Positions 20,970 through 38,840 of a DNA stretch of 64,000 nucleotides are shown here, in pieces. The position numbers and the translations under genes were made by a program. The notes under the pieces were generated by a model. It was not told the DNA's origin. It saw nothing but the letters and a program-made list of their open reading frames with translations, and made no database searches. The stretch lies in the NCBI RefSeq assembly GCF_030646155.1, contig NZ_JAUTDN010000001.1:124001-188000 (forward strand), in the 5' to 3' direction. Numbering within the stretch: the stretch's first letter is position 1; every line of letters starts with the position of its first letter. This stretch comes from Conexibacter sp. CPCC 205762. GTDB lineage: Bacteria > Actinomycetota > Thermoleophilia > Solirubrobacterales > Solirubrobacteraceae.

Positions 20970-23042
20970 TTGTCCAGCTTTCTGACCGACCACGGCGTCC
21001 TCGTCGCGCTCGTCTGCGCTGCCGCGGCGCTCGTCTACGGCGCCGTGACCGTGAGATCGCTGCTCGCGCTCTCGCCTGGCAACGAGCGAATGCAGTCGAT
21101 CTCGGCCGCCGTGCAGGAGGGCGCTCGCGCGTACCTCAACCGCCAGTACTCGACGATCGCCGCCGTCGGCATCCTGCTGTTCGTCGCGCTGATCTTCATC
21201 CAGGACATCTGGGTCGCGATCGGCTTCGCGATCGGCGGCGCCTCCTCGGCGGCCGCCGGCTACATCGGCATGAACGTCTCGGTGCGCGCCAACGCGCGCG
21301 TCGCCGAGGCCGCCCGTGACGGCGTCCCGACCGCGCTGCGGGTCGCCTTCAGAGGCGGCGCCGTCACCGGCATGCTCGTCGTCGGGCTCGCGCTCGTCGG
21401 CGTCTCCGCGTACTACGGGATCCTCACCTCGTGGGTCGACAAGACGCCGAAGGAGGCGGTCGACGCGCTGATCGGCCTCGGCTTCGGCGGCTCGCTGATC
21501 TCCGTCTTCGCGCGCCTCGGCGGCGGCATCTTCACGAAGGGCGCCGACGTCGGCGCCGACCTCGTCGGCAAGATCGAGGCCGGCATCCCCGAGGACGATC
21601 CGCGCAACCCGGCCGTGATCGCCGACAACGTCGGTGACAACGTCGGCGACTGCGCCGGCATGGCGGCCGACCTGTTCGAGACGTACGCCGTCTCGGCCGT
21701 CGCAGTGATGCTGCTCGGGGTGCTGACGTTCCAGGAGTCGAGCGCGGTCGCGGTCTATCCGCTCGTGCTCGGCGGCGTCTCGATCATCGCCTCGATCATC
21801 GGCACGTACTTCGTCCGCTCGGCCAGCGGCAACGTCGAGAACGCGCTCTACAAGGGGCTGATCGTCTCGGCCGTGCTGGCGGCGATCGCCTTCTACCCGA
21901 TCACCCACTGGCTGATGGACGACGTCACGCCGCGCGGCGCGATCGCGCCGGGCGCAGGCCCCAGCGTCGGCGACTTCTACATCTGCTCGCTGATCGGGCT
22001 GGCGATCACCGGCCTGCTGTTCGTCATCACCGACTACTACACGTCGACGCGCTTCGCACCGGTCAAGTCGACCGCGAAGGCGTCGGAGACCGGCCACGCG
22101 ACGAACATCATCCAAGGGCTCGCGCAGGGCTTCCAGTCGACCGCGGCGCCGGCGCTCGTGATCGCGCTCGGGATCCTGTGGGCGAACGACCTCGCCGGCA
22201 TCTACGGGATCGGCATCGCGGTGATGGCGATGCTGTCGCTGACCGGCCTGATCGTCGCGCTCGACGCCTTCGGGCCGATCACCGACAACGCCGGCGGCAT
22301 CGCCGAGATGGCGGAGCTGCCGGAGGAGGTCCGCAACGTCACCGATCCGCTCGACGCGGTCGGCAACACGACGAAGGCGGTCACGAAGGGCTACGCGATC
22401 GGCTCGGCCGCGCTCGCGGCGCTCGTGCTGTTCCGCGCCTTCGAGTACGAGCTGAACATCGAGCTGTTGAAGGACCACAAGGATCCGGTCTCGTTCATCC
22501 TCGGCGACCCGGCCGTGCTGATCGGGCTGCTGATCGGCGGCATGATGGTCTACCTGTTCGTCGCGCTCTCGATGGAGGCGGTCGGCCGTGCCGGCGGCGC
22601 CGTCGTCGAGGAGGTGCGGCGCCAGTTCCGCGAGAAGCCGGGGATCATGGACGGCTCGCAGGAGCCCGAGTACGGCACCTGCGTCGACATCGTCACGAGA
22701 TCGGCGCAGCGGGAGATGATCCTGCCGTCGCTGATCCCGATCGTCGTCACGACGATCGTCGGCGTGCTGTCGGTCGAGGCGCTCGGCGGGCTGCTGATCG
22801 GCGTGATCGTCGTCGGCCTCTTCATGGCGATCTCGATGACCTCGGGCGGCGGCGCGTGGGACAACGCGAAGAAGCTGATCGAGGACGGCGCCTTCGGCGG
22901 CAAGGGCTCGCAGGCGCACGAGGCGGCGATCACCGGCGACACGGTCGGCGATCCCTACAAGGACACCGCCGGCCCGGCGATCAACCCGATGATCAAGGTC
23001 GCCAACATCGTCGCGATCTTGATCATCCCGTTGATTGTGTAA
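20970..23042 (+). CDS. hppA: Membrane-bound proton-translocating pyrophosphatase
   Basis: A 690-residue ion-pumping pyrophosphatase, about 16 helices, coupling PPi hydrolysis to proton export. The PPi site is intact: [54 protein letters not shown], with a second acidic cluster [15 protein letters not shown] and the C-terminal [22 protein letters not shown]. The stretch [16 protein letters not shown] has Lys and Thr where K+-dependent enzymes carry Ala and Gly/Ala, so it belongs to the K+-independent class. Translation starts at TTG 20970, with GGAGG nine bases upstream. Own promoter and terminator; a monocistronic unit. Confidence 0.97.
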
Positions 23043-25025: not shown

Positions 25026-25934
25026 GTGAGCCTCTCCGTCCAACTCGGCCTGCTGCTCTCTCTCGCCACCGCCCTGGCGAGCGTCGTCGGCTTCCTCTAC
25101 AAGCATCGCGGCGCGCAGCAGGCGCCCGAGGTCGACTGGAAGCGCCCGCTGCACAGCACGATCGTGCTGTTCAGATCGGGCTGGTACACGCTCGGGATCC
25201 TCGTCGCGCTCGGCGGCTGGTTCTTCCACGTCGGCGCGCTCGCGCTGGCGCCGATCACGCTCGTGCAGTCGGTGATCGCCGGCGGGCTCGTCTTCCTGAC
25301 CGTCGTCGCCGACAAGCTGTTCGGCCACCGCGTCAGCCGCCGCGAGTGGATCGGCGTCGCGCTGATGGCCGCCGGCCTCGCCTTCCTCGCCGCGACGATG
25401 GAGGGCGCCGGCGACGACGCCCACTCCGACTACGCGACCGCGACGCTGCTGATCTACGTCGGCGGGCTGTCGCTCGCCGGCACGCTGGCGGCGGTCGTCG
25501 GCGGGCGGCTCGGCGGCGGCAGCCGCGGCGCGAGCGCCTACGCGCTCTCCGCCGGCCTGCTGTGGGCCGCGTCGGACACGTCGATCAAGGCCGTCTCCAA
25601 CCACCTCGACGACGACGGCTTCCTGCTGACCGTCCTGCACCCGCTCAGCCTCGTGATCCTGGTCGCCTCGCTCGCCGGCCTGCTGGTGTCGGCGAAGTCG
25701 CTCCAGCTCGGCGACGCGGTGCCGGTGATCGCCGTCACCAGCGCGGCGGCCAACCTCACGACGATCGCCGCCGGGCCGATCGTCTTCGGCGAGCCGATGC
25801 CCGGCAGCCCGCTCGGGATCGCCGTCCGGCTGCTCGCCTTCGGCCTCGTCGTGGTCGCCGCCGCGCTCACGCCGCCGCCCGCCGCCGCACCCGCTCTGGA
25901 GCCCACTGTCACAGAGGCGTCCGCGCGGGTCTAA
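25026..25934 (+). CDS. DMT-superfamily (EamA/NIPA-like) transporter
   Basis: A 302-residue protein with about nine to ten helices in two repeated halves: LLSLATALASVVGFLYKHRGA, TLGILVALGGWFFHVGALALAPITLVQSVIAGGLVFLTVVADKLFGHRVSRREWIG, then AYALSAGLLWAASDTSIKAVSNHL. The motif ALAPITLVQSVIAGGLVF resembles NIPA magnesium transporters and EamA exporters. GTG start. It precedes the permease/TrkA cassette by 46 bp and could be its first gene. Confidence 0.85.
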   Translation: MSLSVQLGLLLSLATALASVVGFLYKHRGAQQAPEVDWKRPLHSTIVLFRSGWYTLGILVALGGWFFHVGALALAPITLVQSVIAGGLVFLTVVADKLFGHRVSRREWIGVALMAAGLAFLAATMEGAGDDAHSDYATATLLIYVGGLSLAGTLAAVVGGRLGGGSRGASAYALSAGLLWAASDTSIKAVSNHLDDDGFLLTVLHPLSLVILVASLAGLLVSAKSLQLGDAVPVIAVTSAAANLTTIAAGPIVFGEPMPGSPLGIAVRLLAFGLVVVAAALTPPPAAAPALEPTVTEASARV

Positions 25935-25980: not shown

Positions 25981-27894
25981 ATGGCCAAACGCCGCCTTCA
26001 CGGTCTCGAGCGCGTGCTCGGGGTCAACGCACTCTTCTCGACCGCCTACGGCAACGTCGGCTCGTCGATCTATTACGCGCTCGGCCTCGTCGCCTCGTTC
26101 GCGCTCGGCCTCACGCCGGTCGTCTTCATCATCGCCGGGATCATCTTCTACCTGACCGCCTCGACCTACGCCGAGGCGACCGCGATGTACCCGGAGGCGG
26201 GCGGCTCGTCGAGCTTCGCGCGCCACGCCTTCAACGAGTTCTGGTCCTTCTTCGCCGCCTGGGGCCAGATGCTCAACTACACGATCACGATCTCGATCTC
26301 GGCCTTCTTCGTGCCGCACTACATCGGGTCGCTGTTCTGGCCGGCGCTGCAGCACGCGCCGGGCGACGTGATCGCCGGCTGCATCTGCGTCGCGGCGCTG
26401 GCTGCGCTGAACGTCTTCGGCGCGAAGGAGACCGCCGGGCTCAACATCACGCTCGCGGTCGCCGACTTCGCGACCCAGCTGCTGCTGGTCGCGCTCGGCC
26501 TCGTGCTCGTCTTCAGCCCCGACGTGCTGATCGACAACGTCAGATGGGGCATCGCGCCGAGCTGGGGCGACTTCATCGTCGCGATCCCGGTCGCGATGAT
26601 CGCCTACACCGGCATCGAGACGATCTCGAACATGGCCGAGGAGGCGAAGGACGAGACGAGATCTATCCCGAAGGCGATCAACCGCGTCGTGATCGCCGTC
26701 TTCGCGATCTACGCGCTGCTGCCGGCGATCGCGCTCTCCGCGCTGCCGGTCAAGTGCGACGCCGGCGGCGAGTGCAAGACGCTGCTCGGCCTGCCGGAGG
26801 ACAAGGGAGGCTTCGCGGGCGACCCGGTGCTCGGCATCGTCGAGCACCTCAACCTCGGCCCGCTCCAGCACGCCGGCGAGATCTACGTCGGCCTGCTGGC
26901 CGCGACGATCCTCTTCCTCGCGACCAACGCCGGCATCATCGGCGTCTCGCGGCTGACGTACTCGATGGGCGTCCATCGCCAGCTGCCCGACCAGCTGCGC
27001 CAGCTGCACCCGAAGTACCGCACGCCGTGGATCGGGATCATCTTGTTCTCCGCGATCGCCTGCGTCGCGATGATCCCCGGCAAGGCCGGCTTCCTCGGCA
27101 ACCTCTACGCCTTCGGCGCGATGCTGTCGTTCACGATCGCGCATGCGGCGGTGGTGCGGCTGCGGCTGAAACAGCCGGACGCGAGACGACCGTACCGTGG
27201 CCCCTTCAACCTCAGCTGGAGAGGGCGCGACATCCCGCTGTTCGCCGTCTTCGGCGGGATCTTCACGGCGCTCGCGTGGGGCGTCGTGACCGCGCTCTAC
27301 ATCGACGTCGCGATCACCGGCCTGACGTGGCTGGTGCTCGGCATCGGCGTCTTCGTCGTCTACCGCAGGCGGCAGGGGCTCGACCTCGTCACGACGACGC
27401 GCGTCGCGGTGCCGAAGCCGGTGATCGACCACGAGGCCGAGTACGAGTCGGTGCTGGTCGCCTTCGACGAGCGCGAGTACGTCCCCGACGTGCTCGCGAC
27501 CGCGATCAAGCTCGCCGCCCGCAAGCACCGCGGCATCCACGTCATCGTCACGATCACCGTCCCCGCCACCTCGCCGATCAACGCCGCGATGCCGGAGCAG
27601 GAGCTGGCGGCGCAGTCGCTGATCGAGCAGGCGAAGGTGCACGGCGGGCGGCGCGTCACCGGCCACTGGGAGAAGGTCCGCCCGGGCCAGGCCGGCCGCC
27701 GCATCGTCGACGAGGCGAAGGTGATCCAGGCGCGCGCGATCGTGATGCCGCTGCCGGTGCGGACCGGCGGCGGGTCGATCTTCGGCCGCACGCTGGAGAC
27801 CGTGCTGGCCGAGCGGCCCTGCCGCGTGATCATCGAGTCCGGCCGCGGCAGACGCCGCGCCGCCGAGCGCGCCGCCGCGGCGGAGGTGGCCTGA
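25981..27894 (+). CDS. APC permease fused to C-terminal USP domain (KimA-like), copy 1
   Basis: A 637-residue fusion. Residues 1-~450 are an APC-fold permease of about twelve helices: FSTAYGNVGSSIYYALGLVASFALGLTPVVFIIAGI with the unwound GxG region of TM1, YPEAGGSSSFARHAFNEF, and AMIAYTGIETISNMAEEAKDETRSIPKAI. Residues ~465-620 form a universal-stress-like domain (YESVLVAFDEREYVPDVLATAIKLAA ... GRTLETVLAERPCRVII). APC permease plus cytosolic USP-fold domain is the architecture of the KimA potassium transporters; amino-acid transport is the alternative. Followed by a 63-residue membrane protein and a paralogue. Confidence 0.9.
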   Translation: MAKRRLHGLERVLGVNALFSTAYGNVGSSIYYALGLVASFALGLTPVVFIIAGIIFYLTASTYAEATAMYPEAGGSSSFARHAFNEFWSFFAAWGQMLNYTITISISAFFVPHYIGSLFWPALQHAPGDVIAGCICVAALAALNVFGAKETAGLNITLAVADFATQLLLVALGLVLVFSPDVLIDNVRWGIAPSWGDFIVAIPVAMIAYTGIETISNMAEEAKDETRSIPKAINRVVIAVFAIYALLPAIALSALPVKCDAGGECKTLLGLPEDKGGFAGDPVLGIVEHLNLGPLQHAGEIYVGLLAATILFLATNAGIIGVSRLTYSMGVHRQLPDQLRQLHPKYRTPWIGIILFSAIACVAMIPGKAGFLGNLYAFGAMLSFTIAHAAVVRLRLKQPDARRPYRGPFNLSWRGRDIPLFAVFGGIFTALAWGVVTALYIDVAITGLTWLVLGIGVFVVYRRRQGLDLVTTTRVAVPKPVIDHEAEYESVLVAFDEREYVPDVLATAIKLAARKHRGIHVIVTITVPATSPINAAMPEQELAAQSLIEQAKVHGGRRVTGHWEKVRPGQAGRRIVDEAKVIQARAIVMPLPVRTGGGSIFGRTLETVLAERPCRVIIESGRGRRRAAERAAAAEVA

Positions 27895-27897
27895 CCG

Positions 27898-28089
27898 ATG
27901 CCCGCTCCGCGTGACGTCCACCGCTACACGACGATGACGATGTCGGCGCTGATGTTCGCGATCGGCGTCGTGCTGCTGGTGCTGACCTTCGCCAAGGGCG
28001 GCGGCGTCGCCTCGACCGGCACGATCGTCGGCGTGCTGTTCCTGCTCGCCGGCGGCGGCCGCTTCCTGCTCGCGCGGAGAGTGCGCTGA
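27898..28089 (+). CDS. 63-residue two-helix membrane protein
   Basis: A very small protein: basic N-terminus (MPAPRDVHRYTTM), helix 1 (SALMFAIGVVLLVLTFA), a Gly-rich turn (KGGGVASTG), helix 2 (TIVGVLFLLAGGGRFLLA), basic end RRVR. It starts 3 bp after permease 1 and its stop overlaps the ATG of permease 2 (TGATG). Conserved placement between two transporters suggests a small accessory subunit. No family recognised. Confidence 0.78.
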   Translation: MPAPRDVHRYTTMTMSALMFAIGVVLLVLTFAKGGGVASTGTIVGVLFLLAGGGRFLLARRVR

Positions 28090-30083
28090 TGGGCCAGCCC
28101 GGCCACGCCGGCGGCGCGCCGCAGCGCAGCCTCAGCGCTCGCGCGCTGTTCGCGCTCGTCTACACGACCTCGGTCAGCTCGGTCTACTTCGCGCTCGGCG
28201 TCGTCGCGCATCGGGCGCTCGGGCTGACGCCGCTCGTCTTCCTCGTCGCCGGCCTCTTCTTCGCGCTCAGCTCGATGACCTACGTCGAGGGCGCGGCGCT
28301 CCACCGCGAGCGCGGTGGCTCGTCGGTCTTCGCCCGCTACGCCTTCAACGAGCTGATCAGCTTCATAGCCGGCTGGTCGATCCTGCTCGACTACTCGATC
28401 CTGATCGCCGTCACGGCCTTCACGACGACCAACTACCTGGCCGAGTTCTGGGATCCGCTCGGCTCGGGCGTGCCGGAGGTCGTCGTCGCGATCGCGATCA
28501 TCGCCGCGGTCGCGGTCTGGAACGTCAGCGGCGTCACCGTCCGCCAACTGCAGCGGCAGGTGCTGGTCGCGATCGTCGACCTCGGCGTGCAGCTGCTGGT
28601 GATCGTGCTCGGCCTGGTCCTGATCGTCCATCCGGGCGCGATCGTCGACACGATCGACCTCGGCGTGCAGCCGGCCTGGGACGACGTCGTCTTCGCGCTC
28701 ACGATCGCGACGATCGCCTTCACCGGCCTGGAGGCGGCGGCGAGCCTCGCCGGCGAGTCCAGCGGCGTCACGCGCAAGGGGCTGAAGTCGCTCGTCGGGC
28801 CCGGCTCGGCGTCGATCGTGCTCGTCTACGTCGGGATCGCGGTCGTCGCCGTCAACGCGCTGCCGGTCGCCGACGGCGCGAGCGCCTTCACGACACGCGA
28901 CATCGAGGCGCCGCTGCTCGGCGTCGCCGACGGCTTCACGCCGACGTGGCTGTCCGACGTGCTGCAGCCGCTCGTCGCGCTCGCCGCCGTGACCGCGCTG
29001 GTCGCGGCCTGCAACGGCGCGATGCTCGGCACCTCGCGGCTCTCCTACGCGCTCGCCACCAACCGCCAGATCCCCAGCGCGCTCGGCCGGCTGCATTCGA
29101 GGTTCGGCACGCCGTACGTGCTGATCGCGCTCGCCGCCTTGATCGCCTCGGCGCTCGTGATCCCGGCCGACCTCGACTTCCTCGTCGGCATCTACGCCGT
29201 CGGCGCGCTGATCGCCTTCACGATCGCCCACCTCGCGATCATCAAGCTGCGCTTCAAGGAGCCCGACCGGCCGCGGCCGTACAGCGTCCCGCTCAACATC
29301 CGCTGGCGCGGGCGGCCGGTGCCGCTGCCGGCGGTCCTCGGCGCGCTGCTGTCCGCCGCCGGCTGGCTCAGCGTGCTGGTGCTGCACACCGGCGCGCGCT
29401 GGGTCGGGCTCGCCTGGCTGGTCGGCGGCATCGCGCTGTACGTGATCTACCGCCGCATCGACGGCAACTCGCTGTTCACGCGCGTGACGGTGCCGGAGAA
29501 GGCGCTGATGCACGAGAAGCGCGACCCGGACGAGTTCGGCTCGATCCTCGTGCCGATCTTCGGCAAGCCGCTCGACGACGACATCGTCCAGACCGCCGGC
29601 CGCCTCGCCGGCACCGTCTCCGACGAGCTGGAGGAGGAGGGCGCGGTGATCGAGGCGATCTGGGTCTTCGAGATCCCGATGGCGCTGCCGATCGACGCGC
29701 GCCTGCCGGAGGCGCAGATCAGACGCGCGCAGGAGGCGCTGCGGCGCGCGAAGGCGGTCGGCGAGGAGTACGAGGGCGTGCACGTGCAGACGGCGATGGT
29801 GCGCGCCCGACGCGCCGGGCAGGGGATCGTCAACGAGGCGAAGCGGCGCGGGGTGGAGGCGATCGTGCTCGCCGCCGAGGAGCCCTCGCGTGTCCGCGGC
29901 GGCGCGCTGCTGGGCGGATCGGGCGGCCCGCTCGACAACTTCGTCGGCGAGGCGACCAAGTACGTGCTGCGCAAGGCCGAGTGCCGCGTGATCCTGACCG
30001 CCCCCGCGGCGGACGCCGTCGAGCCGCGAGCGAAGCTGCCGGAGGCGCCGGGGGCGGAGGAACCGGAGAGAGCGCAGCGCTAA
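28089..30083 (+). CDS. APC permease fused to C-terminal USP domain (KimA-like), copy 2
   Basis: A 664-residue paralogue of the permease at 25981. The permease half has LVYTTSVSSVYFALGVVAHRALGLTPLVFLVAGLFFALSSMTYVEGAA, RGGSSVFARYAFNELISF and TIAFTGLEAAASLAGESSG; the C-terminal half is USP-like (FGSILVPIFGKPLDDDIVQTAGRLAG ... EATKYVLRKAECRVIL). Compared with copy 1 the TM1 loop GNVGSSIYYALG becomes TSVSSVYFALG, so the substrate or coupling ion may differ. An acidic/Pro tail follows the USP fold. Coupled to the upstream small protein; TrkA genes follow in 10 bp. Confidence 0.9.
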   Translation: MGQPGHAGGAPQRSLSARALFALVYTTSVSSVYFALGVVAHRALGLTPLVFLVAGLFFALSSMTYVEGAALHRERGGSSVFARYAFNELISFIAGWSILLDYSILIAVTAFTTTNYLAEFWDPLGSGVPEVVVAIAIIAAVAVWNVSGVTVRQLQRQVLVAIVDLGVQLLVIVLGLVLIVHPGAIVDTIDLGVQPAWDDVVFALTIATIAFTGLEAAASLAGESSGVTRKGLKSLVGPGSASIVLVYVGIAVVAVNALPVADGASAFTTRDIEAPLLGVADGFTPTWLSDVLQPLVALAAVTALVAACNGAMLGTSRLSYALATNRQIPSALGRLHSRFGTPYVLIALAALIASALVIPADLDFLVGIYAVGALIAFTIAHLAIIKLRFKEPDRPRPYSVPLNIRWRGRPVPLPAVLGALLSAAGWLSVLVLHTGARWVGLAWLVGGIALYVIYRRIDGNSLFTRVTVPEKALMHEKRDPDEFGSILVPIFGKPLDDDIVQTAGRLAGTVSDELEEEGAVIEAIWVFEIPMALPIDARLPEAQIRRAQEALRRAKAVGEEYEGVHVQTAMVRARRAGQGIVNEAKRRGVEAIVLAAEEPSRVRGGALLGGSGGPLDNFVGEATKYVLRKAECRVILTAPAADAVEPRAKLPEAPGAEEPERAQR

Positions 30084-30093
30084 TCTTCCGCTC

Positions 30094-30519
30094 ATGCTGA
30101 TCCTGATCGTCGGTGCGGGGCGTGTCGGCTCCGCCGTCGCCAAACAAGCGCTCGAGGCCGGTCACGAGGTCTCGGTGCTCGACCAGGACCCGCTCTCGCA
30201 CGAGCAGCTCGACAAGGACCTGGTCGACACGTGGGAGGACGCCGGCGGCCGCTTCACCGTCGGCACCGCGCTGGAGGTCGACGCGCTCGTCGAGGCCGGC
30301 ATCGAGCAGGCCGACGTCTTCATCGCCGCCACCCGCGGTGACAACACCAATCTGGTGGTCGCGCAGATCGCGCAGAAGCGCTTCAACGTCCCGCGCGTGA
30401 TCGTGCGCGTCGCCGACCCGGCCCGCGCGGCCTGGTACGCCGAGCAGGGGCTGCAGACGATCTGCCCGACCCAGCACGCCATCGACCTCGTGGCGAAGGC
30501 CGCGCTGACGCCGGCGTAA
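30094..30519 (+). CDS. Single-domain TrkA-N (RCK) protein
   Basis: A 141-residue NAD-binding RCK domain: LILIVGAGRVGSAVAKQALEAGHEVSVLDQDPL, an acidic partner loop, VGTALEVDALVEAGIEQADVFIAATRGDNTNLVVAQIAQKRFNVPRVIVRVADPARAAWY. It lacks the C-terminal RCK_C domain, so it probably pairs with the next protein. RCK proteins gate potassium channels and transporters in response to nucleotides. Located 10 bp after the second permease. Confidence 0.92.
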   Translation: MLILIVGAGRVGSAVAKQALEAGHEVSVLDQDPLSHEQLDKDLVDTWEDAGGRFTVGTALEVDALVEAGIEQADVFIAATRGDNTNLVVAQIAQKRFNVPRVIVRVADPARAAWYAEQGLQTICPTQHAIDLVAKAALTPA

Positions 30520-30531
30520 GGGGAAGCTGCC

Positions 30532-31203
30532 GTGTACGTGATCATCGCCGGAGCCGGCAAGGTCGGCTGGAACCTCGCCCGCGAGCTGCTCTCCAAGGAC
30601 CACGAGGTGACGCTGATCGAGGACGATCGTCGTCGCTACCTCGTCGTCGAGCAGGAGCTGGAGCACGCCGTCCAGTACGGCGACGCGACCGAGCTGTGGG
30701 TGCTGGAGCGCGCCGGCATCCAGCGCGCCGACCTCGTCATCGCCGTCACCGGCGACGACGAGGACAACATGCTGATCTGCCAGATGGCGAAGGAGAAGTA
30801 CCTGACGCAGCGGATCGTCGCGCGCGTCAACAACCCCCGCAACCTGCAGCACTTCAAGCTGCTGGGGATCCAGCCGGCCGTCTCCGCGACCGACCTGATC
30901 CTGCGCCTGATCGAGCACGAGGTGCCGCAGTACGGCCTCGTCCAGCTGCTGGCGCTGGAGGGCGAGCGGCTGGAGATCATCGAGCTGGAGGTCGTCCAGG
31001 GCGCGGCCGCCGCGGGCCTGCGCGTCGAGGAGGTCCCGCTGCCGGACGGCTGCCTGATCATCTCCGTGCTGCGCGACGGCGGCGGCTTCGTGCCGAAGTC
31101 CGACACCGTCATCGAGGCCGGCGACGAGGTCCTGCTGATCCTCGACCCGGGCCTCGAGTCGGCGATCACGCCGCAGTTCACGCAGAGCACGGCGGCGGCC
31201 TGA
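30532..31203 (+). CDS. trkA: TrkA-like protein, RCK_N plus RCK_C
   Basis: A 223-residue regulator with an N-terminal Rossmann domain (YVIIAGAGKVGWNLARELLSKDHEVTLIEDDRRR, GDATELWVLERAGIQRADLVIAVTGDDEDNMLICQMAK) and a C-terminal RCK_C domain (LEIIELEVVQGAAAAGLRVEEVPLPDGCLIISVLRDGGGFVPKSDTVIEAGDEVLLIL). RCK_C domains bind ligands, in several lineages c-di-AMP. No TrkH/KtrB channel is nearby, so its membrane partners are probably the two APC-USP permeases. GTG start with an AAGGGGAAG ribosome site; TGATG overlap into the flavoprotein gene. Confidence 0.93.
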   Translation: MYVIIAGAGKVGWNLARELLSKDHEVTLIEDDRRRYLVVEQELEHAVQYGDATELWVLERAGIQRADLVIAVTGDDEDNMLICQMAKEKYLTQRIVARVNNPRNLQHFKLLGIQPAVSATDLILRLIEHEVPQYGLVQLLALEGERLEIIELEVVQGAAAAGLRVEEVPLPDGCLIISVLRDGGGFVPKSDTVIEAGDEVLLILDPGLESAITPQFTQSTAAA

Positions 31204-32459
31204 TGGCCGATCGTCATGTCGCGCACCTGCTGATCGGCGGCGGGCTCGCCTCCGCCTCCTGCGCGCGCTGGCTGCGCGAGGGCGGGGCTTCCGGGGACAT
31301 CCTGCTGGTCGGCCGCGAGCCCGACCTGCCGTACGAGCGGCCGCCGCTGTCGAAGGAGTACCTCAGCGGCGCCGGGTCGCGCGAGGACGCGCTCTGGAGA
31401 CCGGCCTCGTGGTACGACGAGCAGCGGATCGAGGTGCTGCAGCGCACCTCGGTGATGAAGCTGAACACGGAGGAGCAGGTCGCGACGCTCTCCACGAAGG
31501 AGACCGTCTCCTTCGACACCGCGCTCGTCGCGACCGGCGCGAACGTGCGGCGGCTGCCGGTCGACGGCGCGCAGCTGGAGGGGATCTCCTACTTGCGCGC
31601 GTTCGGCAACGCCGAGCAGATCAGAGCCGAGGGCGCGGGCAAGCGCGTCGTGCTGATCGGCGGCTCCTACATCGGCTGCGAGGTCGCGGCGACGCTGACC
31701 GGGCTGGGCGCGCAGTGCACGATCGTGATGCAGGAGGACGTGGCGCTGTCGCGGACCTTCGGCGCGGAGGCCGGGCGCTTCTTCCAGTCGCAGCTGGAGC
31801 AGCACGGGATCGCGTTCGTCGCCGGCGACGCGCTGGAGCGGTTCGAGGGCTCCGGCGATGCGGTCGAGCGGGTCGTGACCGCGGCGGGCGTGACGCTGGA
31901 CGCCGACGCGGTCGTGATCGGCGCGGGCGTCGCTCCTGATGTGATGCTGGCGCGCTCGGCAGGCTTGGAGCTGGACGCCGATCTCGGCGGGATCGCCTGC
32001 GACGCGCGCCTGCGCACGTCGGCGCGCGGGATCTGGGCGGCCGGCGACATCGCCGCCTACGACAGCGTCATCCACGGCCGGCGGATCCGCGTCGAGCACT
32101 GGGATGCGGCGCTGCAGCAGGGCAAGACGGCGGCGCGCTCGATGCTCGGCGAGGACGTCGTCCACGACGTCGTGCCGTACTTCTTCTCCGACCTCGCCGA
32201 CTGGGCCTCGCTGGAGTACGTCGGGCCGGCGCGCGAGTGGGACAGAGAGGTCGTGCGCGGCTCGTACGAGAGCGGCGAGTTCAGCACCTGGTACGTGTCC
32301 GGCGGCCGGGTCGCCGGCTGTCTCTCCGTCGGCCGCTCCGACGACCTCGATCATGCCCGTCGTCTGATCACCGCCGGCGAGGCGCTCGAGCCGGCCGACG
32401 TGGTCCGCCTCGGCGACGCCTCCACCGACCTCGCCACGATCGGCCCGGCGGCGGCGTAG
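31203..32459 (+). CDS. FAD-dependent NAD(P)H oxidoreductase (ferredoxin-reductase/AIF type)
   Basis: A 418-residue two-dinucleotide-fold flavoprotein. FAD site: HLLIGGGLASASCARWLREGG and the late GIWAAGDIAAYDS; NAD(P)H site: RVVLIGGSYIGCEVAATLTGLGAQ. PYERPPLSKEYL is typical of rubredoxin/ferredoxin reductases. The C-terminal domain (SLEYVGPAREWDREVVRGSYESGEFSTWYVSGGRVAGC) matches the AIF/reductase C-domain. There are no CxxC redox residues. Coupled by TGATG to trkA, which is unusual: it may link the transport cassette to NAD(P)H state. Confidence 0.9.
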   Translation: MADRHVAHLLIGGGLASASCARWLREGGASGDILLVGREPDLPYERPPLSKEYLSGAGSREDALWRPASWYDEQRIEVLQRTSVMKLNTEEQVATLSTKETVSFDTALVATGANVRRLPVDGAQLEGISYLRAFGNAEQIRAEGAGKRVVLIGGSYIGCEVAATLTGLGAQCTIVMQEDVALSRTFGAEAGRFFQSQLEQHGIAFVAGDALERFEGSGDAVERVVTAAGVTLDADAVVIGAGVAPDVMLARSAGLELDADLGGIACDARLRTSARGIWAAGDIAAYDSVIHGRRIRVEHWDAALQQGKTAARSMLGEDVVHDVVPYFFSDLADWASLEYVGPAREWDREVVRGSYESGEFSTWYVSGGRVAGCLSVGRSDDLDHARRLITAGEALEPADVVRLGDASTDLATIGPAAA

Positions 32460-35133: not shown

Positions 35134-35195
35134 CCCCGGTGCGGTGGGCTCGCCGCGGCTCCGCCGCCCGCCCCGCGCCCGCTCGCGGTCCGCGC

Positions 35196-36914
35196 CTAGC
35201 GGCCGACCCAGACCGCGACCGGCACGCGCCGGCCCTTCAGCCCGACCTCGCCGTGCCGTTCCAGGCGCTCGGCGGCCTCTGCGCCGCCGAGCGCCTTCAC
35301 CGTCGCCTCGGCGGCGAACAGCCGCGCCGGCGGCTCCAGCGCCAGCTCGCGGCCGAGCGCCTGCAGCCGCGCCGCGACGTTCGTGACGTCGCCGATCGCG
35401 GCGTACTCGACCCGTCGCTCCGAGCCGATCACGCCGGCCATCAGCTCACCGCTGTTGAGCCCGACGCCGATCCCCAGGAGCGCGTCCTGCTCCAGCAGCC
35501 CGCGCTCGGAGGCCCAGCGGTTCAGCGCCGGCAGCACGTCGTCGACCAGCGCGAAGCCGGCGGCGACCGCCCGCGCGGCGTGGTCGGCGAGCGGCAGCGG
35601 CGCGCCGAAGACCGCCATCACGCCGTCACCCTGGTAGGAGACGACCGTCCCACCGCGGTCGAGCACCGCCGCCGTCACCAGCTCCAGGTAGCGGTTCAAC
35701 AGCGCGATCGTGCGCTCGGCGCCGAGCCGCTCCGACAGCGTCGTGAAGCCGCGCAGGTCGCAGAAGAGGACCGTGCCGACGACTCTGCGGCTCTCCAGCG
35801 GCTCGTCGCGCGCGAGCAGCTCGGTCGCGACCGCCGGCGCGACGAACCGCTCCAGCTCCACGCGCAGCCGCCGCTGCGCCCGCAGCTCGACCGCATACGT
35901 CAGCGCGACGGCGCCCGCCGTCCCGAACAGCAGCGCCAGCAGCGGCGCGACGAGCGGCACGATCGCCCCGCCGTCGAACGCCAGCTGCGCGCCGCCGAGC
36001 AGCACGACGACGCCGCTCGCGCCGACCGCGAACGCCCGCACGAGCGCCCGCGACGGCGAGCCCGGCAGCGCGGTCGCCAGCGGCGCCAGCAGGCCGCAGG
36101 CGAGCACGAGCAGCACCGCGACGGCCGGCGGCGCGTCGCGCAGCGGGTAGCCGTCGAGGATCGTCTGGACCGCGTTGGCGTTGATCTCGACGCCGCTCAT
36201 CTCGTGGCCGTACGGCGTCGGGTGGAAGTCCAGCAGCGACGGTGCCGTCGCGCCGACGAGCACGATCCGGCCGCGCACCAGGTCGCGGTCGAATCTGCCG
36301 TCGAGCAGATCGCTGAAGGAGAGGTGCGCGACCGTGTCCTGCGGGCCGGCGAAGTCGATCGGCCGCTCGGGCGCATCGGGCGAGCCGTCGGCGGCGAGCG
36401 CGCTGAGGTGTGGCACGCCGTGGTTGGAGCCGGCGAAGCGGCGCCAGGTGCCGTCGGTGTCGACCGGGAAGAACGCCACGCCGACGCGCGCGCCGGCCTG
36501 GCGCAGACGCGGGAGGATCCGCGCTCTGCCGTCGAGCCCGATCTCGGAGGTGCCGAGCACGACGCGCGGGTCGGCGGCGGCGCGGGCGAGCGCGGCGTCG
36601 TCGGCCGGGTCGCTCGCCTCGGTGAACTGGACGTCGTAGGCGACGGCGCGGGCGCCGGCCGCCAGCAGCGCGTCGATCGCCTGCGCGTGCAGCCGCCGGG
36701 GGAAGGGGAAGCGGATGCCGAGGTCTCTGATGGCGTCGTCGTCGATCTCCACGATCGACACGCCGGCGGGCGGGCCCTGCGATCCGCGCACGCGGAAGCG
36801 CTCGTCGACCGAGGCCGACTCGAGCTGCTGGAGCGCGCCGGTCCAGGCGATGCCGGCGGCAAGCGCGGCCGCCAGCAGGCCTGTGATCAGCGCACGCACC
36901 GGCCGGCTCAGCAT
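35196..36914 (-). CDS. CHASE2-domain class III adenylate/guanylate cyclase
   Basis: A 572-residue membrane enzyme. An N-terminal helix is followed by an extracytoplasmic CHASE2 sensor (VDERFRVRGSQGPPAGVSIVEIDDDAIRDLGIRFPFPRRLHAQAIDALLAAGARAVAYDVQFTE ... IVLVGATAPSLLDFHPTPYG), three helices, and the cyclase domain. Catalytic residues are intact: metal Asp in FCDLRGFTTLSERL and YQGDGVMAVFGAP, transition-state Asn/Arg in AIGDVTNVAARLQ. It should make cAMP (or cGMP) in response to an outside signal. The start ATG 36914 is preferred because ATG 36932 lies inside a palindromic operator candidate. The Crp-like gene 2 kb away is the obvious effector. Confidence 0.93.
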   Translation of the reverse strand: MLSRPVRALITGLLAAALAAGIAWTGALQQLESASVDERFRVRGSQGPPAGVSIVEIDDDAIRDLGIRFPFPRRLHAQAIDALLAAGARAVAYDVQFTEASDPADDAALARAAADPRVVLGTSEIGLDGRARILPRLRQAGARVGVAFFPVDTDGTWRRFAGSNHGVPHLSALAADGSPDAPERPIDFAGPQDTVAHLSFSDLLDGRFDRDLVRGRIVLVGATAPSLLDFHPTPYGHEMSGVEINANAVQTILDGYPLRDAPPAVAVLLVLACGLLAPLATALPGSPSRALVRAFAVGASGVVVLLGGAQLAFDGGAIVPLVAPLLALLFGTAGAVALTYAVELRAQRRLRVELERFVAPAVATELLARDEPLESRRVVGTVLFCDLRGFTTLSERLGAERTIALLNRYLELVTAAVLDRGGTVVSYQGDGVMAVFGAPLPLADHAARAVAAGFALVDDVLPALNRWASERGLLEQDALLGIGVGLNSGELMAGVIGSERRVEYAAIGDVTNVAARLQALGRELALEPPARLFAAEATVKALGGAEAAERLERHGEVGLKGRRVPVAVWVGR

Positions 36915-36922
36915 CGGCGCAG

Positions 36923-36938
36923 TGTCGCGCATTCGACA
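36923..36938. promoter_or_regulatory. TGTCG-N6-CGACA palindrome at cyclase start / NHL promoter
   Basis: TGTCGCGCATTCGACA, perfect 5-bp half-sites with N6 spacing, lies 9 bp upstream of the cyclase start and 58 bp upstream of the divergent NHL gene. The spacing is that of Crp-family sites (TGTGA-N6-TCACA) with altered outer bases. Second occurrence at 34322. Confidence 0.5.
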
Positions 36939-36995
36939 CGGACGGTGCGTGGTCTGCGACAGTTGCGGCGGGCGCCACGCGCCAGGATCTGGTCC

Positions 36996-38840
36996 ATGAA
37001 CCGCCGGAATCGCCTCCAACGCATCCTCTTCGCGCTCGTCGTCGTGCTCGCGGCGAGCGCCTCCGCCGCGGGCGCCGCCGACCGCATCGACACCGTCGCC
37101 GGCAGCGGCACCGGGGGCTTCGCGGGCGATGGCGGCTTCGCCGTCAGAGCGCTGCTGACCTCGCCGTCGGCGCTGGCGCCGTTCTCCGGCGGCGAGGGCT
37201 ACCTGATCGCCGACACCTCCAACAACCGCATCCGCCGCGTCGATCCGGCCGGCGTGATCACGACCGTCGCCGGCGCCGGCCCCTGCTGCGGCACGAGCGA
37301 CCCGTTCGCCGGCAACGGCGTCGCCGCGACCGACGCGAGCGTCCGCCTCAACCAGCCGCGCGGCGTCGCGATCGCCGCCGACGGCTCGGTCCTGATCGCC
37401 GACAGCGGCAACCATCGCATCCGCCGCGTCGGCGCGGTCGCCGGCGTGGGACCGAACGCGATCACGACCGTCGCCGGCAACGGGATCCAGGGCAACGGCA
37501 GCAACGACAACGCCACCACCGTCAGCCTCAACACGCCCGGCGACGTCGCGCCGCTGCCCGACGGCGGCTTCCTGATCGCCGACACCGGCAACAACCGCAT
37601 CGCGCGCGTGCTGCCGGGCGGGATCAGACTGATCACCGTCGCCGGCGGGGGCGGCGAGGGGCTCGGCGACGGCGGTCCGGCGACCTCCGCCGAGCTGAAC
37701 GCGCCCGCGCGCGTCGTGCCGCTGACCGGCGGCGGCTATCTGATCGCGGACACCGGCAACAACCGCATCCGCCGCGTCGGCGCCGACGGCACGATCACGA
37801 CCGTCGCCGGCTCCGGCACGGTCGGCGGCTTCTCCGGCGACGGCGGCCCGGCGACGCAGGCGGTCCTGAACGGCCCCGAGGGCGTCGCCGTCCGCGACGA
37901 CGGCTCGATCGTGATCGCCGACAGCACCAACGAGCGGATCCGGCTCGTCACCGCCGACGGCAGGATCTCGACGATCGCCGGCACCGCCACGCTCGGCTTC
38001 TCCGGCGACGGCGGCGATCCGCTCGCCGCGCGGCTGTCGCATCCGCGCGCGGTCGCCGCCTCCGGCACGACCCTGCGGATCGCCGACTCCTTCAACCACC
38101 GCGTGCGCGCGATCACGCCGGTGACGCCGAGAGCGAACCCGCCGGGCACGACGCAGACGCCGCCGAGAACGGTCCCGCCGGGCGTCGCCCCGCCCGTGCT
38201 CGCGACCTCGACCGTCGTCGCGCCCGTCAGCGGGACGGTGCTGATCAGGCTGAAGGGGAGACGCGGCTTCGTGCCGCTGTCGAGCGTCGCCAACATCCCG
38301 CTCGGCAGCGAGCTGGACGCCAACGGCGGCCGCGTCTCGCTCCAGTTCACGACGACGGCGGCCGGCCGCCGCGCCAGCGCGGTCGTCGGCGGCGGGCGGT
38401 TCGTCGTCAACCAGGACGCCGCCGTCGAGCGCGGTCAGCTGCCCGGCAACCTGCTGCTGTCCGGGCCGCTGGAGGGCTGCCAGGCCGTGCGGCGCGGCGC
38501 GACGGCGCGGCCGCGCGGCCACGGCGCCTCACCCGCGACGCCGCGCGCGCAGTCGTCGAAGAAGAAGAAGCGCGCGCGCAAGGGCCGCAAGGGCCGCCGC
38601 GTCGACGTCCACGCCGACGGCGTGATCCGCACGCAGGGCAGATACGGCGCCGCGATCGTGCGCGGCACGCGCTGGACGATCGTCGACCGCTGCCCGCGCG
38701 ACCCGCACCCGGGCAGCTACGTGACCGTGCGCAAGGGCAAGGTCGCCGTGACCGCGTTCGCGCTGCGCAGAACGGTGCTGGTGCCGGCGGGGAGACACTT
38801 CCTCGCGCCGGTCAGAAGAACCCGCGCGCGCCGGCGCTAG
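36996..38840 (+). CDS. Exported NHL-repeat protein with FecR-like C-terminal domain
   Basis: A 614-residue secreted protein. After a signal peptide (LFALVVVLAASASAAGAA) come about six NHL repeats, each ending in a variant of GYLIADTSNNRIRRV...ITTVAGSG...GDGGPA: a beta-propeller of ~370 residues. A Pro/Thr linker follows, then a FecR-like beta domain (VSGTVLIRLKGRRGFVPLSSVANIPLGSELDANGGRVSL), a strongly basic stretch (SSKKKKRARKGRKGRR) and a further beta segment. The propeller probably binds protein or glycan outside the cell. Divergent from the cyclase with 81 bp between starts. Confidence 0.9.
   Translation: MNRRNRLQRILFALVVVLAASASAAGAADRIDTVAGSGTGGFAGDGGFAVRALLTSPSALAPFSGGEGYLIADTSNNRIRRVDPAGVITTVAGAGPCCGTSDPFAGNGVAATDASVRLNQPRGVAIAADGSVLIADSGNHRIRRVGAVAGVGPNAITTVAGNGIQGNGSNDNATTVSLNTPGDVAPLPDGGFLIADTGNNRIARVLPGGIRLITVAGGGGEGLGDGGPATSAELNAPARVVPLTGGGYLIADTGNNRIRRVGADGTITTVAGSGTVGGFSGDGGPATQAVLNGPEGVAVRDDGSIVIADSTNERIRLVTADGRISTIAGTATLGFSGDGGDPLAARLSHPRAVAASGTTLRIADSFNHRVRAITPVTPRANPPGTTQTPPRTVPPGVAPPVLATSTVVAPVSGTVLIRLKGRRGFVPLSSVANIPLGSELDANGGRVSLQFTTTAAGRRASAVVGGGRFVVNQDAAVERGQLPGNLLLSGPLEGCQAVRRGATARPRGHGASPATPRAQSSKKKKRARKGRKGRRVDVHADGVIRTQGRYGAAIVRGTRWTIVDRCPRDPHPGSYVTVRKGKVAVTAFALRRTVLVPAGRHFLAPVRRTRARRR

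Follow-up and report, generated by a model that had tools for sequence, protein, structure and literature searches.

A conserved K+-linked module of Actinomycetota joins RCK proteins to LeuT-fold permeases

Gating channels is the textbook role of bacterial RCK rings. What does a pair of RCK proteins do in a gene cluster that encodes two permeases and no TrkH channel? The question is raised by a 64,000-nucleotide stretch of Conexibacter sp. CPCC 205762 (hereafter the window), in which six plus-strand genes lie between 25981 and 32459. The cluster opens with permease A (P0002; 25981–27894; 637 residues), followed by a small membrane protein of 63 residues (P0003; 27898–28089), permease B (P0004; 28089–30083; 664 residues), a short RCK_N protein (P0005; 30094–30519; 141 residues; nucleotide-binding loop GAGRVG), an RCK_N-RCK_C protein (P0006; 30532–31203; 223 residues; GTG start) and a ferredoxin-reductase-like FAD protein (P0001; 31203–32459; Pfam Pyr_redox_2 and Reductase_C). 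The junctions measure, in order, 3 bp, a 1-base overlap, 10 bp, 12 bp and a 1-base overlap, which confirms the compact layout (gaps of at most 12 bp or stop-start overlaps) described in a sequence-only reading of this DNA. Its domain assignments held as well: both permeases combine AA_permease_2, of the APC/LeuT fold, with a C-terminal Usp domain (Usp E=1.7e-9 in A and 1.7e-6 in B) and are diverged paralogues of 38% identity, and the two RCK proteins match Pfam TrkA_N only and TrkA_N plus TrkA_C, respectively.

The locus is a conserved actinobacterial K+-linked module in which RCK proteins are joined to LeuT-fold permeases. Its genes are of known kinds; the combination of the RCK pair with APC-USP permeases and a small hairpin protein is new to us, and a literature search for RCK proteins with the APC superfamily found nothing. 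On balance, we consider it probable that the cluster is an RCK-regulated LeuT-fold uptake system for K+ or a similar monovalent cation, the counterpart in its class (Thermoleophilia) of mycobacterial CeoBC with a KimA-type permease.

Within this class, P0006 has matches in 93 of 119 genomes (E≤1e-10). Forty regions were fetched, most of them among the highest-ranking RCK matches, and are not a random draw. The order permease A, hairpin, permease B, RCK_N, RCK_N-RCK_C is kept in 14 of the 15 loci that belong to the host's taxonomic order; at least one APC-USP gene is present in 32 of the 40 class loci, and beyond the host's order the RCK pair mostly comes with one or two. Conservation of the order, which had been named as a check for all six genes, stands for these five, but not for the flavoprotein, which follows the cluster in 9 of the 15 loci of the order and in none of the 25 other class loci. 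The redox coupling attributed to it was therefore rejected as a core feature, although in the host the flavoprotein is probably co-transcribed with the cluster; a search of the stretch from permease A to the flavoprotein gave no terminator-like site. Among the matches listed, to which all the following co-occurrence counts refer, and leaving aside weaker RCK rows and partial second segments, permease and free RCK gene are both present in 71 class genomes, at most 6 kb apart in 56 of them. One genome (G078) has the permease only and three (G021, G096, G051) the free RCK gene only, two of these three carrying a true homologue of the K+/H+ symporter KimA in place of the permease.

This replacement is seen at the class loci L069 and L073, where a KimA homologue and a tandem-USP protein occupy the place of permeases A and B and are followed by the same RCK pair. 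KimA is the only PDB match of the L069 permease (6s3k; E=8e-126), and the L073 permease matches the L069 protein at 995 bits. In a maximum-likelihood tree of the RCK_N-RCK_C protein both loci fall inside the APC-USP clade, the fork that joins them to the APC-USP rows having a support of 100/90. Thus, two different LeuT-fold permeases go with the same RCK pair.

A similar arrangement is seen outside the class. One genome of the phylum sample, G154, has an RCK gene with 98–99% identity to Mycolicibacterium records, from which the phylum follows. In this sample, 155 of 198 genomes were matched, and 39 regions from outside the class were examined, again mostly from the top of the match list and not random. 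Within the fetched stretch, 16 of them hold a KimA homologue, 12 TrkH without KimA, three an H+-pyrophosphatase and eight none of these. Among the matches listed for the 198 genomes, KimA and the RCK gene are at most 9 kb apart in 53 of the 69 genomes that have both, and 46 KimA genes lie within 1.9 kb. In mycobacteria, all 65 loci longer than 12 kb have a KimA homologue (E=4e-105 against KimA for the Mycobacterium szulgai permease) about 100 bp upstream of the RCK pair and transcribed away from it; no TrkH was found in the fetched stretch of these 65. According to sections of PMC6375644 and PMC12216072, ceoBC of M. tuberculosis is a K+ uptake locus, and transposon insertions in ceoB and in Rv2690 have a phenotype in common. 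From the adjacency described in part of PMC12216072, together with the known gene orientation, we infer that the RCK pair of M. tuberculosis is CeoB/CeoC and the permease Rv2690c. A literature search found no paper joining KimA, ceoB and Mycobacterium, nor the link between CeoBC and KimA. The K+ role and the RCK-permease link proposed for the window cluster are supported by this comparison, with KimA homologues in the permease slot of two class genomes and of mycobacteria. As a separate observation, loci of other actinobacterial families (L112, L123, L136) hold arrays of at least four RCK-matching genes together with TrkH and other, unassigned genes.

Are the window permeases then KimA proteins themselves, as had been suggested? 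By sequence they are not, and this assignment was rejected: KimA is absent from the 26 distinct PDB sequences that match P0002 at E≤0.001. What remains is profile and site similarity. P0002 resembles KimA in profile-profile comparison only (hhalign 99.2%, E=2e-19), and of nine functional positions, taken from the residues tested by mutation in the part of PMC6994465 that lists them, permease A keeps seven (Y43, Y118, T121, S125, T230, E233 and Y377), each invariant in 32 of 32 rows. The D117 position is Asn in 17 of these rows. The Glu of transmembrane helix (TM) 6, of the H+-coupling type, and the Tyr of TM10 are thus present in every permease A row, and they are mostly kept in the more degenerate permease B (E233 in 22 of 25 rows, Y377 in 18 of 25), which retains D117 and has lost Y43 and T121. 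Three amino-acid permeases from the host genome keep only one or two of the seven positions. The positions in TM3, TM6 and TM10 came out the same in an unsupervised hhalign alignment. The host genome has two APC-USP permeases of the A/B type, both in the cluster; three other matches are weak and lack the C-terminal part.

Direct control by cyclic di-AMP (c-di-AMP) through a KimA-type Arg337 was considered and rejected, the residue being found in none of the 32 permease A rows and in 19 of 21 KimA-like rows (a set in which L069 is counted twice). A strict Arg337 pattern gave 0 of 61 for the mycobacterial permeases, a void result, as the pattern is too narrow (L147 reads LAQDRYLPRQ). Since the host genome has one diadenylate cyclase domain, control by c-di-AMP through RCK_C is conceivable.

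The 63-residue protein has no match in Pfam or NCBIfam. Of 23 two-permease loci, 21 encode a two-helix hairpin between the permease genes; most of these hairpins have a GGG turn and, at the end, a conserved G-x-x-R. The 21 were chosen as the most hydrophobic small frame, and it is their alignment, not the choice, that serves as evidence. Combined with the window protein into a profile, they retrieved 12 further copies in class loci; E was at most 7e-6 for 11 of these, and the remaining one was weak at 0.004. Nine of the 12 stand just 5' of a permease and three between an H+-pyrophosphatase and the RCK pair. In all, a related hairpin is present in 33 of the 40 class loci and in 30 of the 32 that have an APC-USP gene, and the profile had no match in the 39 other actinobacterial loci or in 80 mycobacterial loci.

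Several observations weigh against the reading as an RCK-regulated cation uptake system, some of them lying in the permeases themselves. Nearly all PDB matches of P0002 are named amino-acid transporters, of LAT and CAT types among others, with no K+ transporter among them; one, 6f2g, is presumably GkApcT. The best NCBIfam matches are likewise amino-acid permease subfamilies, every one far under its cut-off. A structure model of P0002, built from a two-row alignment, reached a pLDDT (predicted local distance difference test score) of 37 and was not used. The TM1 Asp that is essential in the KUP family (KimA D36, Kup D23) is missing from the cluster permeases: at the D36 position, permease A has Asn in 32 of 32 rows and the window's permease B has Thr, in the TM1 register that we prefer. 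According to part of PMC6994465, D36 is essential and D36N inactive. This register is the weak point, as MAFFT on a mixed set, hhalign and the motif-based register differ. In TM1, permease A has the motif AYGNVGSSIYYALG; the motif-based register was preferred for its fit to the KUP motif, for the invariance of Asn25 and for the Asp that two copies carry at this position. These are the standalone permease A copies L243 and L244, with YGDVGSSIYYALG, in which the TM1 motif is almost KUP-like and Asp replaces the Asn of the cluster copies. By analogy, Asn at this place need not exclude K+, since KCC4, in the part of PMC7200160 that describes its site, coordinates K+ with a TM3 Tyr and with the backbone carbonyls of two further residues, Asn in TM1 and Thr in TM6. 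The PDB and NCBIfam matches and the missing Asp would suit permeases for amino acids or other organic solutes, with the RCK pair adjusting their activity to K+ or energy status. We consider this unlikely, as KimA homologues fill the same slot beside the same pair, the seven KimA ion-site positions invariant in A are not so in the host's amino-acid permeases, TrkA and TrkH adjoin in the K+ islands of L072, L074, L080, L081, L082 and L086, and the two standalone copies have the TM1 Asp.

Other contrary observations concern the partnership. The sequence-only reading had the cluster without any TrkH/KtrB channel, which is correct for the locus, where there is no TrkH, but not for the genome: a search of the host assembly (6.1 Mb, 116 contigs) found one TrkH (C97, E=9e-64), and also KdpA. 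The RCK pair might then regulate this TrkH from a distance, the permeases being merely co-expressed K+ or osmolyte genes. Among the 39 loci from outside the class, 12 have the pair with TrkH and no KimA homologue, which would agree with this, as would G051, where the pair is convergent with TrkH-TrkA and no permease is present. However, the host TrkH adjoins a full-length two-RCK TrkA frame of its own, so that the local pair is a second RCK set; the long mycobacterial loci keep the permease and have no TrkH nearby, and 71 of the 75 class genomes with either permease or free RCK gene have both. Regulation of a remote TrkH thus appears quite improbable to us. Still less probable, in our judgement, is a conserved neighbourhood without physical partnership, in which K+ uptake, H+-pyrophosphatase and stress genes share an operon for joint expression. 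An H+-pyrophosphatase does occur within the fetched stretch of 22 of the 40 class loci, it adjoins the RCK pair instead of a permease in three g29 loci, and permease A can occur alone, standing elsewhere in the g29 genomes and lying away from the pair in 15 of the 71 genomes with both, some of these through contig breaks. Junctions of at most 12 bp, and the exchange of the permease for KimA with the RCK pair retained, favour a specific partnership.

For the RCK-regulated uptake system, the following mechanism is proposed. Both permeases would be secondary transporters of the LeuT fold, with H+ coupling probably through the conserved TM6 Glu; because A keeps the ion-site residues and B has lost several, they may act as a heterodimer in H+-driven K+ uptake, perhaps energised by the neighbouring H+-pyrophosphatase. 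The hairpin would serve as a small subunit in the membrane, and the RCK_N and RCK_N-RCK_C proteins may assemble into a ring of the TM1088A/B type, a nucleotide-sensing gate that would open or close the permease by way of its USP parts or those on the membrane side, as TrkA does for TrkH. In the wider actinobacterial arrangement, the same RCK pair, as mycobacterial CeoB/CeoC, would work with a KimA-type K+/H+ symporter. It is a tentative proposal, for which we judge the case to be nearly balanced, that across the Actinomycetota permeases of the KimA or APC-USP type are gated by a ring of CeoB and CeoC, with the hairpin subunit added in the host's class. If true, an RCK ring controlling a LeuT-fold secondary symporter would widen the roles of RCK proteins beyond channels and CPA antiporters, and it would provide the mycobacterial 'Trk' system with the membrane subunit that it lacks. 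CeoB and CeoC are called a K+ transporter, yet both have the look of regulators in the cytosol, and K+ transport itself would fall to the permease next to them, Rv2690c in M. tuberculosis.

Upstream of the cluster, and likewise on the plus strand, lie a membrane H+-pyrophosphatase (20970–23042; named from PF03030 in its L066 homologue), an MFS-like protein (likely start 23213; assigned to MFS by eye alone) and a DMT-like permease (25026–25934) that ends 46 bp 5' of permease A. The H+-pyrophosphatase carries the motif GNTTKA, which we take to mark the K+-independent type. With the DMT-like permease and the H+-pyrophosphatase at these positions, the cluster probably extends upstream; the DMT-like permease is not a core member, being found with the cluster only in the same-genus locus L049 among the fetched class loci. 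In L066, L071 and L087 (g29), the RCK pair stands directly after the H+-pyrophosphatase and a hairpin gene, while a different contig carries the APC-USP permease; in this layout, the H+-pyrophosphatase and the RCK proteins may be directly linked. At L076 (2576–4042) and L080, an antiporter-like frame, of CPA type by eye and with a C-terminal stretch like RCK_C, is convergent with the RCK pair. Elsewhere in the window, long frames overlap on both strands (35196–38522 and 35139–38840); by eye only, the end of the minus-strand frame resembles a CHASE2-type adenylate cyclase and that of the plus-strand frame an NHL-repeat protein.

Among known systems, E. coli Kup (KUP family) is similar in TM1, where the window motif YGN-V-GSS-IYY resembles the VFGD/IYGD motif of KUP proteins given in part of PMC6994465, and different in that the window permeases have no Pfam K_trans match up to E=0.1. 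KimA, the K+/H+ symporter of Bacillus subtilis from the same family (PDB 6s3k, 8b70, 8b71), has a LeuT fold and a C-terminal cytosolic domain like the permeases here, agrees with permease A at seven of nine functional positions and replaces the permease in two class loci. It differs in sequence (no significant PDB match), in D36, which is Asn in permease A, and in Arg337, which is absent; those parts of the KimA literature that we consulted name no RCK partner. The RCK pair itself consists of an RCK_N-only and an RCK_N-RCK_C protein, both with nucleotide loops and encoded side by side. This is the form of the TrkA of Thermotoga maritima, which has two subunits (TM1088A/TM1088B, PDB 3l4b) and in a section of PMC4380455 is likewise encoded by adjacent genes for an RCK_N protein of about 140 residues, like P0005, and an RCK_N-RCK_C protein of about 220, like P0006. 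The same section gives TrkH (TM1089) as the partner of this ring, whereas the window cluster has none. The mycobacterial CeoB/CeoC 'Trk' locus with the adjacent Rv2690c is similar in that a LeuT-fold permease, and no nearby TrkH, accompanies the same kind of RCK pair. Its permease, however, is a KimA homologue and is transcribed in the direction away from the pair, whereas in the window the first RCK protein is without RCK_C, and an APC-USP pair with a hairpin is encoded on the same strand.

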